NCBI RefSeq assembly: GCF_009659535.1
Contig: NZ_VJZZ01000005.1
Span: 310,001-374,000, forward strand
Direction of reading: 5' to 3'
Origin: Aggregicoccus sp. 17bor-14
GTDB taxonomy: Bacteria; Myxococcota; Myxococcia; Myxococcales; Myxococcaceae
DNA: 64,000 nt
Shown here piece after piece: positions 18,177 through 61,449 of this stretch. The notes below the pieces were generated by a model that saw only the letters and a list, made by a program, of their open reading frames with translations, ran no database searches and was not told the origin of the DNA. The first letter of the stretch is position 1; each line of letters begins with the position of its first letter. A program made the translations under genes and the position numbers.

Positions 18177-18249
18177 TGCCCAGAGACGGAATCGAACCGC
18201 CGACACGGGGATTTTCAGTCCCCTGCTCTACCAGCTGAGCTATCTGGGC
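18177..18249 (-). tRNA. tRNA-Phe (GAA)
   Basis: A 73-nt tRNA on the minus strand. The acceptor stem GCCCAGA (5', from 18249) pairs with TCTGGGC, the discriminator is A, and CCA is not encoded. The D arm has GCTCAGCTGGTAGAGC, the anticodon loop CTGAAAA gives anticodon GAA, and the T loop is GTTCGATTC. Its 3' half is the likely attachment site of the island on its left. Confidence 0.97.
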
Positions 18250-41779: not shown

Positions 41780-42154
41780 ATGCACGCCCTCGCGCAGGTC
41801 CTGACCGCCCTGGTGGCACTCGAGCACGCGGGGTTCCTCGTGCTCGAGATGTTCCTGTTCACGAAGCCCATCGGGCTGAAGACCTTCCGGCTGAAGGAGG
41901 ACTTCGCCCGGGCGGCCGCGCCGATGATGCAGAACCAGGGGCTCTACAACGGCTTCCTCGCCGCGGGGCTCCTCTGGGCGCTGCTCGCGAGCGACCCCGG
42001 TCAGGCGCTGCAGCTGAAGACCTTCTTCCTCGGCTGCGTGGTGGTCGCGGGCGCCTTCGGCGCGGTCACGGTGAGCCGCCGCATCCTCTGGCTGCAGGCC
42101 TTCCCTGCGCTGCTCGCGCTCGCGGTGAGCTGGGGTGCCTCACGCGGAGCGTGA
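41780..42154 (+). CDS. DUF1304 membrane protein
   Basis: A 124-residue four-helix membrane protein of the DUF1304 family, recognisable from ALVALEHAGFLVLEMFLF, NQGLYNGFLAAGLLWALL and the third and fourth helices (FFLGCVVVAGAFGAVTV; LQAFPALLALAVSW). The role is unknown. It starts 14 bp after the epimerase gene, so it is probably cotranscribed. Confidence 0.88.
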   Translation: MHALAQVLTALVALEHAGFLVLEMFLFTKPIGLKTFRLKEDFARAAAPMMQNQGLYNGFLAAGLLWALLASDPGQALQLKTFFLGCVVVAGAFGAVTVSRRILWLQAFPALLALAVSWGASRGA

Positions 42155-42290
42155 TGAGCGCGAAGGTCCGCGTCGGCTCTCTGGGGCGGCCAGGCAGGAC
42201 GGTCGCGGGAGACCTGCGCTCAGCCCGAGGGGGCGCTGCCCTGCGAGACGCTCCGGGGATGCGCGGGGTGTCGGGCCGGGTGCTGCGCGC

Positions 42291-42343
42291 TGCTGTGTAC
42301 GAACCTCGGGAGTTTTCGAAAGTCCCGAGGTCTGTAGACAGCA
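42291..42343. repeat. 21-bp inverted repeat (long hairpin)
   Basis: Two 21-nt arms (42291-42311 and 42323-42343) are complementary except at three positions. The inner 9 bp, ACCTCGGGA / TCCCGAGGT, are perfect, and the 11-nt loop contains TTTCGAAA. It could be a cruciform, a terminator of the DUF1304 transcript, or a REP-like element. Confidence 0.7.
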
Positions 42344-42389
42344 CCGCACCATCCTGCGCCCGGGAGCGGCACCCCTCCGGGCGCGGAGT

Positions 42390-42708
42390 CGTGCTCACCT
42401 GTTCTGAGATGTCGGGGGTTTTCCGGTAGCTCTTACCGACCTCGAGGCCATTCTTCTCCGAGCGAGGGCCGCACCGGAACGAGCGTTCATCCGGGTGCTC
42501 ACCTTCGCCCGGACGCCCGGAAAGCGCGGGAAGCCACAGCGGGTGGAGGGGCGCGACGTGCGCGTAGAACGCGCCTCCGTCTGCGCCTTCAGGGGCCCGA
42601 CGGGGGCCCGGAATGAAGCTTCCTTCGCGGGTTGCTCGGGTCGGCGGGCCTCGCGAGCTCTGAAAATTGTTCAGCAAAACCCCCGACATCTCAGAACAGG
42701 TGCGCACG
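42390..42708. mobile_element. MITE-like element with 33-bp terminal repeats
   Basis: Two inverted arms, 42390-42422 and 42676-42708, are identical over 27 bp (CACCTGTTCTGAGATGTCGG and GGGTTTT following) and match 32 of 33 overall. They bound a 319-bp noncoding segment with no transposase, the structure of a MITE or a deleted IS. No target-site duplication is obvious. The same arms are not seen elsewhere in the window. Confidence 0.6.
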
Positions 42709-42941
42709 GACCTGCCCCCGCCGAACCCGCACGCGCGTGCTCTTCGGCGACTGAAGCGCGTGAGCAACGAGATGCCTTGTCGCTCCGGCCGCACGTGAGT
42801 CCGATCCCGAGGCACCCCGGAGCGCCGCGCAGGCCGACGCCCGAGCGCGCTCGGCGCTCACGGAACGAGCCCGTCCCGTCCGGCTTCCTCTCCGAGCGCG
42901 GGCGACGGGCGGGGCACAGGCGAGCAGGGCCGCTTCGCAGC

Positions 42942-43559
42942 TCAGTGCCGACGCTTCATGCGCGCCAGAAAGTACGCCGCCACTTGCTCCGGCGTCGCGA
43001 GCTGCGCCTTCGGTGCATCGGGGTAGATGGACAAGAGAGCGCCTTCGGACGCGCGCACGACGTTGAGGCACGCGTGGCGCAGACCTCCGACGAGGAAGGG
43101 CGCTCCGGGCTCGTAGCGGCACGCCCCCACCTGGGCGAAGGTCGTCGCCCACTGCTCGCACGGCGCGTCGTAGCGTGAGCGCGGGGACGTCATCTTGGCG
43201 AGGGCGTCCGGCTCGCAGCGCTTCACCCGGTAGTTGAGCGCGTAGTACGCGACCTCCTCGTCGGTGTCGTTGTCCAGCCCGCGCATCCGCGTTGCGACCG
43301 TGGCCGAGGAGGGCTGCTCGTACAGCGCGAAGACGAGGAGCCGGCGCGGGTACGGGTCTGTCATGCCCCGCAGTCGCCGCCAGAGCACTTCCGCCGGGTA
43401 GCGCTGCGCGAGCCCCTCGGCCAACTCCCACAGGGTGGCCTGCGTGCCGCACGCATCCAGGTGCGCGACGCAGGTGAGCGACTCGTCGAGCGTCATGGGC
43501 GCAGGCGCCTGTGACTGAGGATTCGAGGCCAGAACGAGGGCAGCCAGAACACTGAGCAC
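42942..43559 (-). CDS. Exported hypothetical protein
   Basis: A 205-residue protein of unknown function. The GTG at 43559 follows AGGAA by about 9 bases and begins a signal peptide (VLSVLAALVLASNPQSQAPA). The mature part has helical repeats (ATLWELAEGLAQRYPAEVLW, RRLLVFALYEQPSSATVA) suggestive of HEAT-like packing, with four or more cysteines. It lies 36 bp from the end of the NTF2-type gene on the same strand. Its composition is lower in G+C than neighbouring genes, consistent with acquisition. Confidence 0.65.
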   Translation of the reverse strand: MLSVLAALVLASNPQSQAPAPMTLDESLTCVAHLDACGTQATLWELAEGLAQRYPAEVLWRRLRGMTDPYPRRLLVFALYEQPSSATVATRMRGLDNDTDEEVAYYALNYRVKRCEPDALAKMTSPRSRYDAPCEQWATTFAQVGACRYEPGAPFLVGGLRHACLNVVRASEGALLSIYPDAPKAQLATPEQVAAYFLARMKRRH

Positions 43560-59607: not shown

Positions 59608-60201
59608 TCAGGCGCGGTGCAGCACGCCGCGCAGCGAGAGCTGCCCGCAGGCGGCGAGGTCTCCGGGGCTGGTGTGCGCGTCCGCGCGTCCCGGCACCAG
59701 GTCCACCTCGGCGAGCCGGTAGCAGCGGCTCACCAGCTGCGAGCAGAAGTACGAGGCCGCGCTCTTCTTCGGGTCGCGGTACTTGCGCATCCGGCCGTGC
59801 CAGACCATCCGCGCGAGCCGCAGGAGCGGCCCGTGCGCGTAGGGCTTGCCCACCTCGTCCAGCGCCGCGGTCACGAGCACGTCGCGGCGCAGCCGCGCGC
59901 GCACCTCGGGCAGCGGGGTGAACCAGTCCACCTGGCCGCTGTAATGGTCCACCGCCACGCTCAAGGGCACTGCCTCCACGCCCTTGCCCACCGCCTGCAC
60001 CACCATGAGCCGCGGGCCCCACCACAGCGCGACCCCCGCGTGCGAGTAGGCGCTCTTGCTGCCCCAGCGGATGAGGCGGCTCATCCAGTAGGTCCCCTGG
60101 AAGAGCAGCACGTCGCCGTCCTGGATCTCCGCACGCACCGCGCGGTAGTCCAGGCGGCTGCCCTTCGGTCGCTTCGGTGCGCGCGCGGCGAGCCCCTCCA
60201 C
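59608..60201 (-). CDS. Permuted papain-like (YiiX/C92) protein
   Basis: A 197-residue protein with the NlpC/P60-related permuted papain fold of the YiiX/YaeF (C92) group: GDVLLFQGTYWMSRLIRWGS, SAYSHAGVALW (His), and YFCSQLVSRCY (Cys). The catalytic His-Cys pair is present in the permuted order. It has no signal peptide. Members are thought to act on lipids or peptidoglycan; the substrate is unknown. The GTG start directly abuts the stop of the DUF2378 gene, so the two are cotranscribed. Confidence 0.85.
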   Translation of the reverse strand: MEGLAARAPKRPKGSRLDYRAVRAEIQDGDVLLFQGTYWMSRLIRWGSKSAYSHAGVALWWGPRLMVVQAVGKGVEAVPLSVAVDHYSGQVDWFTPLPEVRARLRRDVLVTAALDEVGKPYAHGPLLRLARMVWHGRMRKYRDPKKSAASYFCSQLVSRCYRLAEVDLVPGRADAHTSPGDLAACGQLSLRGVLHRA

Positions 60202-60801
60202 TCAGGCCTCCCAGCGCACGCGGTAGGTGCAGCCCTGCGCGTCGCGTGCGTGCACGCTCACGTCCCGGCGGGCCACGCCCACGTGCTCGAGCGCCGCGTC
60301 CACCACGCCCGCCACGTACGCGGGGTGCAGCGTGGGCTCGTTGAGCCACAAGAGCACCTCGGTGGGCCCCACTTCGGTGAGCTGGCTGAGGTTGTAGTTG
60401 CAGCCCGCACGGAAGTTCTGGGTCATCCGCTCCAGGGTGCGGCGCGGCCCGATGAGCCGCAGCAGCCGCAGCATCGCGGCGCCGGTGAGCGTGCGCGAGT
60501 AGCCCACCAGCAGCTGGCGGCCCAGCTGGTGGTAGGCCTGCTCGTGCGAGCCGTGTGGCCACAGCAGCTCCGCCGTGAGCTGCAGGAAGCGGTTCCAGTC
60601 GGCGCGCCGGTAGGTGGGCAGCAGCGGCCGCGCGAGGTCCAGGCCCGCGTCCGCGAGCCGCGCGCGCAGCTCCGGCGTCACCTGCCCCTTGAGCCCCACG
60701 TGGAAGAGCCCCTCCACGGCGTGGTCGAACACCAGCTCGGGCTCACCGGGCCCCGGCGTGCTCCTCCTCAGCTCCTCGACGCTGCGGCTCTGCGGGTACA
60801 T
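60202..60801 (-). CDS. DUF2378 (TIGR02265) protein, second copy
   Basis: A 199-residue protein of the DUF2378/TIGR02265 family, which is known from Myxococcales as large paralogous sets of unknown function. The pattern ELVFDHAVEGLFHVGLKGQV, RLADAGLDLARPLLPTY, and LTEVGPTEVLLWLNEPTLHP matches the adjacent upstream copy over its full length. It starts 3 bases past the stop of that copy and runs directly into the papain-like gene. Family members have been linked only loosely to development; no catalytic motif is seen. Confidence 0.9.
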   Translation of the reverse strand: MYPQSRSVEELRRSTPGPGEPELVFDHAVEGLFHVGLKGQVTPELRARLADAGLDLARPLLPTYRRADWNRFLQLTAELLWPHGSHEQAYHQLGRQLLVGYSRTLTGAAMLRLLRLIGPRRTLERMTQNFRAGCNYNLSQLTEVGPTEVLLWLNEPTLHPAYVAGVVDAALEHVGVARRDVSVHARDAQGCTYRVRWEA

Positions 60802-60804
60802 GCC

Positions 60805-61449
60805 TCAGGCTTCCCAGCGCACGCGGTAGGTGCAGCCCTCCTCGTCGCGCGCGTGCACGGTGATGCTGCGCTCGGCCACGCCCACCAGCTCCAGCACCAT
60901 GTCCACGATGCCGGCCACGTAGGAGGGGTGCAGGGTGGGCTCGTTCATCCACAGCAGCACCTCGCGCGGGCCCAGCTCCGTCACCTTGCACAGGTTGTAG
61001 TTGCCCCCGGAGCGGAAGTTCTGGGTCATCCGGTCCAGCGTGCGGCGCGGGCCGATGAGGCGCAGCAGGCGGATGATGGCGCCGCCCATCAGCGTGCGCG
61101 AGTAGCCCAGGAGCAGCTGGCGGCCCAGCTGGTGGTAGGCCTGCTCGGGCGTCTCGTCGGGCCACAGCGTCTCGGCCGTCACCTGGATGAAGCGGTTCCA
61201 GGCAGCGCGCGGGTAGGCGGGCAGCAGCGGGCGCGAGAGGTCCAGCCCCGCGTCCTTGAGGCGCGCCTGCAGGGGCGGCGTCACCTGCCCCTTGAGGCCC
61301 ACGTGGAACAGCCCCTCCACGGCGTGCTGGAACACCAGCTCGGCCTCGCCGGGCCGGAGGCTGGCGCGCTTCGACGAGGTGCCGGACGAGGCTCCGGAGG
61401 AGGCGTTCGGGGAGGCGTTGCCCTGGGTCTGCGGGTGCATGCGCCGCAC
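60805..61449 (-). CDS. DUF2378 (TIGR02265) protein, first copy
   Basis: A 214-residue paralogue of the next gene, with the same segments (ELVFQHAVEGLFHVGLKGQV, RLKDAGLDLSRPLLPAYPRA, VTELGPREVLLWMNEPTLHP). It has a serine/alanine-rich N-terminal extension (MHPQTQGNASPNASSGASSG). The close similarity across both proteins points to a recent tandem duplication. The frame also allows MRRMHPQ at the start. It is the first gene of a probable three-gene operon with the second copy and the papain-like protein. Confidence 0.9.
   Translation of the reverse strand: MRRMHPQTQGNASPNASSGASSGTSSKRASLRPGEAELVFQHAVEGLFHVGLKGQVTPPLQARLKDAGLDLSRPLLPAYPRAAWNRFIQVTAETLWPDETPEQAYHQLGRQLLLGYSRTLMGGAIIRLLRLIGPRRTLDRMTQNFRSGGNYNLCKVTELGPREVLLWMNEPTLHPSYVAGIVDMVLELVGVAERSITVHARDEEGCTYRVRWEA

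Follow-up and report, generated by a model that had tools for sequence, protein, structure and literature searches.

A dispersed mosaic repeat of Aggregicoccus sp. 17bor-14 with putative AbiEi-type half-sites

Modules and copies of the mosaic element

Two convergent genes of Aggregicoccus sp. 17bor-14 stop at 42154 (+) and 42942 (-) of the 64,000-nucleotide stretch of DNA analysed here (the window), and the gap between them is occupied by a mosaic element. The genes were called with a purpose-written G+C-frame script. The order of modules in the element is M1-(M2 palindrome)-arm-internal palindromes-M1 (Table 1). A preliminary description of this DNA had drawn attention to two inverted arms (42390-42422 and 42676-42708). 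The window sequence and its inverted-repeat listing confirm that these are 33 bp each with one mismatch, that the two copies lie ~250 bp apart, and that no transposase ORF lies between them. As also described, no matching direct repeat was found beside the arms. The location next to low-G+C genes held only weakly: the two surrounding 2-kb bins (0.71 and 0.70) are slightly below most of the window, and the clearly lower G+C of the window is at 6-18 kb (0.59-0.68).

Table 1. Features of the mosaic element, in window positions, and contig ends of the same genome (contig:position) at which an insertion sequence (IS) interrupts the repeat.
Feature	Position	Strand	Basis
Whole mosaic element, M1 to M1, ~720 bp	42177..42896		M1 model matches; alignment with C13 and C2 copies
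Left M1 module	42177..42260	+	R1 match C5:352177-352260, E 8.3e-12; M1 alignment
M2, 49-bp palindrome, CTGT..CTCGGGAGTTTT / AAAGTCCCGAG..ACAG	42293..42341		Sequence, inverted repeat, other copies
Left arm M3, leading C plus 23-bp core TGTTCTGAGATGTCGGGGGTTTT, putative AbiEi-type half-site	42399..42422	+	Sequence, core copies
Internal palindrome, M4-type variant, TGGACGGAAC..TTCGTCCA	42471..42498		Sequence; M4 sites elsewhere
Second internal M4-like palindrome, core GGAATGAAGCTTCC	42607..42631		Sequence; other copies
Right arm M3, putative AbiEi-type half-site	42676..42699	-	Sequence, core copies
Right M1 module	42814..42896	-	R1 match C5:352814-352896, E 6e-18
IS-bearing end, locus L135	C2:1		
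IS-bearing end, locus L134	C7:1		
IS-bearing end, locus L092	C14:168561		
IS-bearing end, locus L091	C18:1		
IS-bearing end, locus L137	C19:1		
IS-bearing end, locus L082	C19:118513		
IS-bearing end, locus L136	C24:1		
IS-bearing end, locus L085	C25:1		

The arm has further copies. Its 19-mer core occurs at 27 sites in the genome with up to three mismatches (19 of them exact), as compared to none for the reversed pattern. Only three pairs of arms face inward (in the window, at C13:73375/73629, and at C2:240715/240922), with spacings of 207-280 bp, and one pair faces outward (C16:16721/16963); the remaining arms of the genome are solo. The arm is therefore real, and is not normally one of a pair of element ends. 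A wide scan of genome contigs with the arm core, from which the own and near genomes were possibly omitted, returned one Planctomycetota contig.

Similarity among copies extends beyond the arms, leftward to ~42177 and rightward to ~42896 (copy alignments). The arms are thus internal modules rather than the boundaries of the element, for which they had been taken. The right-arm block is nearly identical in the window, C13, and C2 copies, and the interior of the window element is mostly common to the other two; the C2 copy is without M2. Module sets vary, with some copies having M1 and M2 without the arm, some M1 and the arm without M2, and some all of these. M2 has the same layout as the arm palindrome found in relatives (see below) and, by hand count, agrees with the palindrome arm at 16 of 24 positions; it may be a sibling site of the arm. 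Outside M1 similarity fades, except for a hairpin common to the C13 and C2 copies. A hairpin of the form CCCTCTCCC..GGGAGAGGG..GGGGTGAGGG is found just outside M1 in some copies (e.g. L073, L074, L075, L078, and L085).

M1 is an 85-bp module that lies outside nearly every arm, the exception being the arm at C16:16963, and copy alignments show it often in inverted pairs. The M1 alignment used 53 of 54 M1 sequences (L102 omitted). A sequence-only model of M1 (R1) has 73 matches in the genome at E<=0.01 and 66 at E<=5e-4. Forty-six matches pair into 23 elements of 277-1045 bp, and the others stand alone or are truncated at contig ends. The terminal inverted repeats common to copies are thus these 23 inverted M1 pairs, and not the arms noticed at the outset. 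All 66 copies of the stricter set lie clear of called genes. In 40 of the 66, the closest gene on the outer side is transcribed toward M1, with its stop codon mostly 15-110 bp before the module; in the other 26 it is transcribed away, at larger distances. No covarying RNA structure was evident in M1, as none of six predicted pairs was changed on both sides. Nor was there a common target duplication at the M1 edges: for 20 of the 23 pairs the best offset gave 43% identity versus 32% for the null, with no common edge. The copies of the arm and of M1 bear out a multicopy, dispersed, intergenic, non-coding repeat that lacks its own transposase; the assignment to a MITE or transposon family in the preliminary description did not hold, as the outer inverted module is M1 and its edges share no target duplication.

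At least five of the 95 other family genomes have M1, each with one weak match (34 bits at best), and M1 is therefore peculiar to the lineage of the own genome, which is the sole representative of its genus among the family genomes surveyed. This survey applied stricter filters and scored up to 46 candidates per genome, such that its counts are lower bounds (at least 46 versus 73 for the own genome).

At eight contig ends (Table 1), the end of an IS lies inside an M1-bearing element, each time at an identical position in the M4 palindrome. The IS ends (CTCAAGATCCAACACAT.. and CTCAAGATTGATCACAT..) are foreign-looking and differ from both M1 and the arms; only two ends are assembled, these two fragments had no Pfam match, and the label IS4-like was given by eye only. 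Seventeen of 18 distinct M4 sites are in or beside M1-bearing loci (comparison of match lists). A separate IS thus exploits the repeat, inserting at one M4 position. REP-targeting IS are described in several families, IS4 included (PMC1525189). ISRm22 (IS4) and IS1397 (PMC1525189) similarly target palindromic repeats; the IS here, which inserts at the M4 centre, differs in being known from two ends only, on which Pfam is silent.

The arm palindrome in sister genera

In relatives, the arm forms a palindrome, CTGTTCGGAAATGTCGGGGGTTTT-N-AAAAGTCCCGACATTTCCGAACAG, which consists of two near-invariant 23-bp inverted repeats, spans 54-57 bp overall, and has a constant left/right asymmetry. Each of the three relatives scanned has 29-49 arm sites, mostly paired 6-9 bp apart. 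A model of the palindrome (R2) has matches in at least 19 of 96 family genomes and at least four of 26 genera, own genome included. These comprise at least 14 of 27 genomes in g23 and at least three of seven in g15, with 2-46 matches per genome, some palindromes being counted on both strands. All of these counts are lower bounds, from stricter filters and up to 52 candidates scored per genome.

One orthologous convergent gap has the palindrome in 10 g23 genomes and is without it in the eight others aligned. Orthologs were mapped in 20 of 23 genomes (G077, G090, and G092 omitted), three with gaps longer than 1.2 kb were dropped (G085, G089, and G095), and the remaining 17 were aligned together with G022. 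Among the 10 orthologs with the palindrome, variable columns number 0/18 and 1/18 in the arms, 8/19 in the centre, 17/29 and 15/18 in the flanks, and 32/75 and 16/60 in the adjoining coding DNA. Either strong constraint or constant homogenisation acts on the arm sequence. In this same convergent gap, the site of L052, eight genomes without the palindrome (G078, G086, G081, G080, G091, G094, G083, and G093) have another hairpin, of the type GGCGACGC..GCGTCGCC.

The palindromes of relatives lie between convergent genes at 18 of 35 classed loci and at 13 of 34 in a second set; six loci in each set were at an edge and unclassed, and the loci include some orthologs. Comparison of orthologous loci (L150 versus L152 and L154; L209 versus L258) shows the asymmetric palindrome centre in opposite orientations, a pattern that template switching or recombination between the arms could produce. 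L150 versus L154 is the clean case, because L152 is on the other strand. One sister-genus locus (L210, G013:C16:73241-73479) has two inverted arms 221 bp apart, like the spaced pair in the window.

AbiEi-family genes beside the arms

Each of the four genera in which the site occurs has an AbiEi-family gene less than 400 bp from a copy of it. A scan of G101, G022, and G013 for arm pairs at IS length yielded one candidate, in G101, where an extra arm lies 0.9 kb away. This locus was rejected as a full-length IS, its gene being AbiEi-like and not a transposase. A tblastn search then identified homologs within palindrome-bearing loci of G013, G022, G087, G098, and G100, as well as one in the own genome, on C16 (L080:3402-4046) beside an arm. 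L058 was suspected of bearing a homolog, and none was found there. A second sample, examined after the link had been proposed, took 40 palindrome loci from eight genomes (34 new places, six already sampled) and gave one homolog each in G095, G073, and G088. The partial locus samples of G074, G076, G082, G085, G090, G096, G097, and G099 had none. Overall, homologs occur in 10 of 85 sampled palindrome loci of relatives, or nine of 76 distinct places (263 kb with repeats), versus none in 1.2 Mb of control DNA (0.8 Mb of arm-free DNA from the own genome, and 0.4 Mb from G101 and G013).

These genes have four neighbourhoods: that of G101 and G095; that of G022, G087, and G088, with G098 and G100; that of G013 and G073; and that of the own genome. 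In G101 and G095, a single arm precedes the start codon by 37-38 bp and a palindrome follows the stop codon by 24-77 bp. In G013 and G073, the palindrome lies 69-161 bp upstream of the start codon. The closest arm in the own genome begins 139 bp upstream of the start of the gene. The palindrome follows the stop codon by 213 and 389 bp in G088 and G022, respectively, with no arm in the promoter of the gene.

Four of six homologs score above the cut-off for PF13338. Those of the own genome and G013 score below it, and belong with the other homologs by their 47-52% identity to them. The AbiEi-like protein has a profile match to PDB 6y8q (AbiEi) and 9hlo (E 1.1e-4), and among the matches listed, the G101 protein is 41-45% identical over about two-thirds of its length to annotated plasmid AbiEi antitoxins. 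The partner nucleotidyltransferase gene AbiEii was present with all eight plasmid AbiEi homologs compared. Here the loci differ from the AbiE type IV toxin-antitoxin system, as no AbiEii gene was found among six neighbouring proteins of the four AbiEi-like loci checked, a set that covers some of the downstream neighbours.

The arm has a plausible precedent in AbiEi operators. S. agalactiae AbiEi is described as binding two 23-bp inverted repeats 3 bp apart, and M. tuberculosis Rv2827c as binding two pairs of 23-bp inverted repeats with 13-bp gaps (PMC7319586). The palindrome of the sister genera likewise consists of 23-bp inverted repeats, and just as an AbiEi-family protein binds the known sites (PabiEi and Prv2827c), a homologous gene adjoins one palindrome copy in the sister genera. 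The arrangement differs. The known sites are described as lying within the toxin-antitoxin promoter, with gaps of 3 or 13 bp, whereas the putative sites here are dispersed. The own genome has 27 arms, most of which are solo or spaced 207-280 bp from each other; three relatives have 29-49 arm sites apiece, mostly in pairs with 6-9 bp between them.

We compared the arm with the promoters of eight plasmid AbiEi/AbiEii pairs, taken from 15 listed plasmid matches (121 records in total). An arm-blind search found an inverted repeat beyond those of shuffles in four of the eight. When all half-sites of the eight promoters were compared jointly with the arm, the match was 170 versus 147.9 +/- 6.0 for shuffled arms, five of 5000 of which were as good; this joint test was framed after exploratory inspection by eye. 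The signal is carried by Methylobacter (28 versus 19.9), Methylomagnum (26 versus 20.8), and Pseudosulfitobacter (19 versus 15.0). Three of the eight promoters are individually arm-like (7, 117, and 163 of 5000 shuffles), and the other five do not stand out.

Interpretation and alternatives

The element in the window is probably (at about 60%) one copy of a dispersed, BIME-like, lineage-specific mosaic repeat that carries AbiEi-type operator half-sites, with the arms as the putative sites. Directly observed are the copies, their mosaic anatomy and lineage restriction, the near-invariance of the arm, the linkage of gene and site, and the joint resemblance to promoters. The 319-bp segment from arm to arm would be the inner part of a repeat located intergenically in a few dozen places. 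The 23-bp arm would be a half-site recognised by an AbiEi-family winged-helix protein encoded beside one copy, and the own genome and three sister genera would have the same pairing of half-site and protein. This protein may recognise two half-sites together in the palindromes, and perhaps single ones in the own genome. Such binding would explain the conservation of the arm. Linkage, conservation, and resemblance suggest this tie between arm and AbiEi gene in every genus found with the site. Counting against the reading are the palindromes of G022 and G088, which lie downstream of the gene, the mostly solo arms of the own genome, the two homologs below the PF13338 cut-off, the partial locus samples of eight genomes without a homolog, and the five plasmid promoters that do not stand out.

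MITEs are short, non-coding, multicopy elements with inverted ends and a target duplication. The element is like them in its size, its inverted ends, its lack of coding sequence, and its copy number, and differs in its mosaic modules and in having neither a target duplication nor a parent that we found. That it is a plain MITE, a unit bounded by M1 that is moved in trans by the transposase of a lost or unseen parent, with arms that have no role of their own, is unlikely. The 23 pairs of inverted terminal M1 (277-1045 bp), none in a called gene, the three copies with a mostly common interior at different loci, and the restriction to one lineage would all fit such a unit, and the elements broken at eight contig ends hold an unassembled IS, which offers a place for a driver. 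However, no target duplication is common to the copies, the modules come in varying sets, and the arms are conserved alone in genera without M1. The preliminary description had pointed to a full-length copy with a transposase between the arms. No arm pair at IS length occurs in the own genome, and neither there nor in G101, G022, and G013 was there a parent element with a transposase and the same ends, the eight contig ends being unassembled. Among the 120 longest matches listed, no gene was common to 20 loci and the window. The IS ends are unlike M1 and the arms and lie at one spot of a palindrome, as an insertion would sit.

The arms and palindromes could instead be RNA elements (terminators or stabilisers) at the 3' ends of flanking genes. 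Such a role would suit the 40 of 66 M1 copies that lie downstream of a gene transcribed toward them, mostly 15-110 bp past its stop codon, the frequent location of the palindromes of relatives between convergent genes (18 of 35 classed loci; 13 of 34), and the other hairpin that sister species without the palindrome have at one site. It is at odds with the 26 of 66 M1 copies that face genes transcribed away, with the lack of conserved RNA pairing in M1, with an arm that is invariant in sequence itself and not in pairing alone, and with the lack of a terminator-like site in 42100-43000, and we regard it as improbable. A described RNA family was rejected as well, the only Rfam match in the window being a tRNA at 18177-18249. 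Least probable, in our estimation, is a conventional REP or BIME that a RAYT (Y1 transposase) disperses and that is retained as a DNA structure element. BIMEs and REPs with RAYT (PMC2817692) are described as intergenic mosaics of palindromic modules, with many copies and one linked gene, and the repeat resembles them in these respects and in being the target of a site-specific IS. It differs in that its modules are 50-85 bp and its linked gene encodes an AbiEi-like DNA-binding protein of an antitoxin family rather than a RAYT: PF01797 (Y1_Tnp) has no match in the own genome, while five of 14 control genomes were positive, and no GT(A/G)G head is seen by eye.

Beyond the reading of the arms as AbiEi-type half-sites, it is conceivable, at somewhat less than even odds, that an orphan AbiEi-family antitoxin is the partner of a genome-wide repeat, its operator palindrome having been multiplied into numerous near-identical intergenic copies in at least four genera and built into a mosaic in the own lineage. 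Most dispersed palindromic repeats are either associated with a transposase or unexplained. Here, a dispersed bacterial repeat would be paired with a toxin-antitoxin regulator in place of a transposase. It could constitute a global regulon or a chromosome-structuring system, or else a selfish site spreading with its binding protein. If the repeat is linked to an AbiEi-type DNA-binding protein, orphan AbiEi genes would gain a testable role, that of binding many fixed sites, and a repeat family would gain a named protein. Titles and the opening lines of abstracts, in a literature with subscription journals thinly covered, had nothing on point about these repeats or about AbiEi with dispersed sites. 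Repetitive sequence was reportedly noted in Myxococcus xanthus in an older account.

Elsewhere in the window, positions 60201-60752 and 60804-61355 are 83% identical and constitute tandem duplicated genes of ~200 amino acids.
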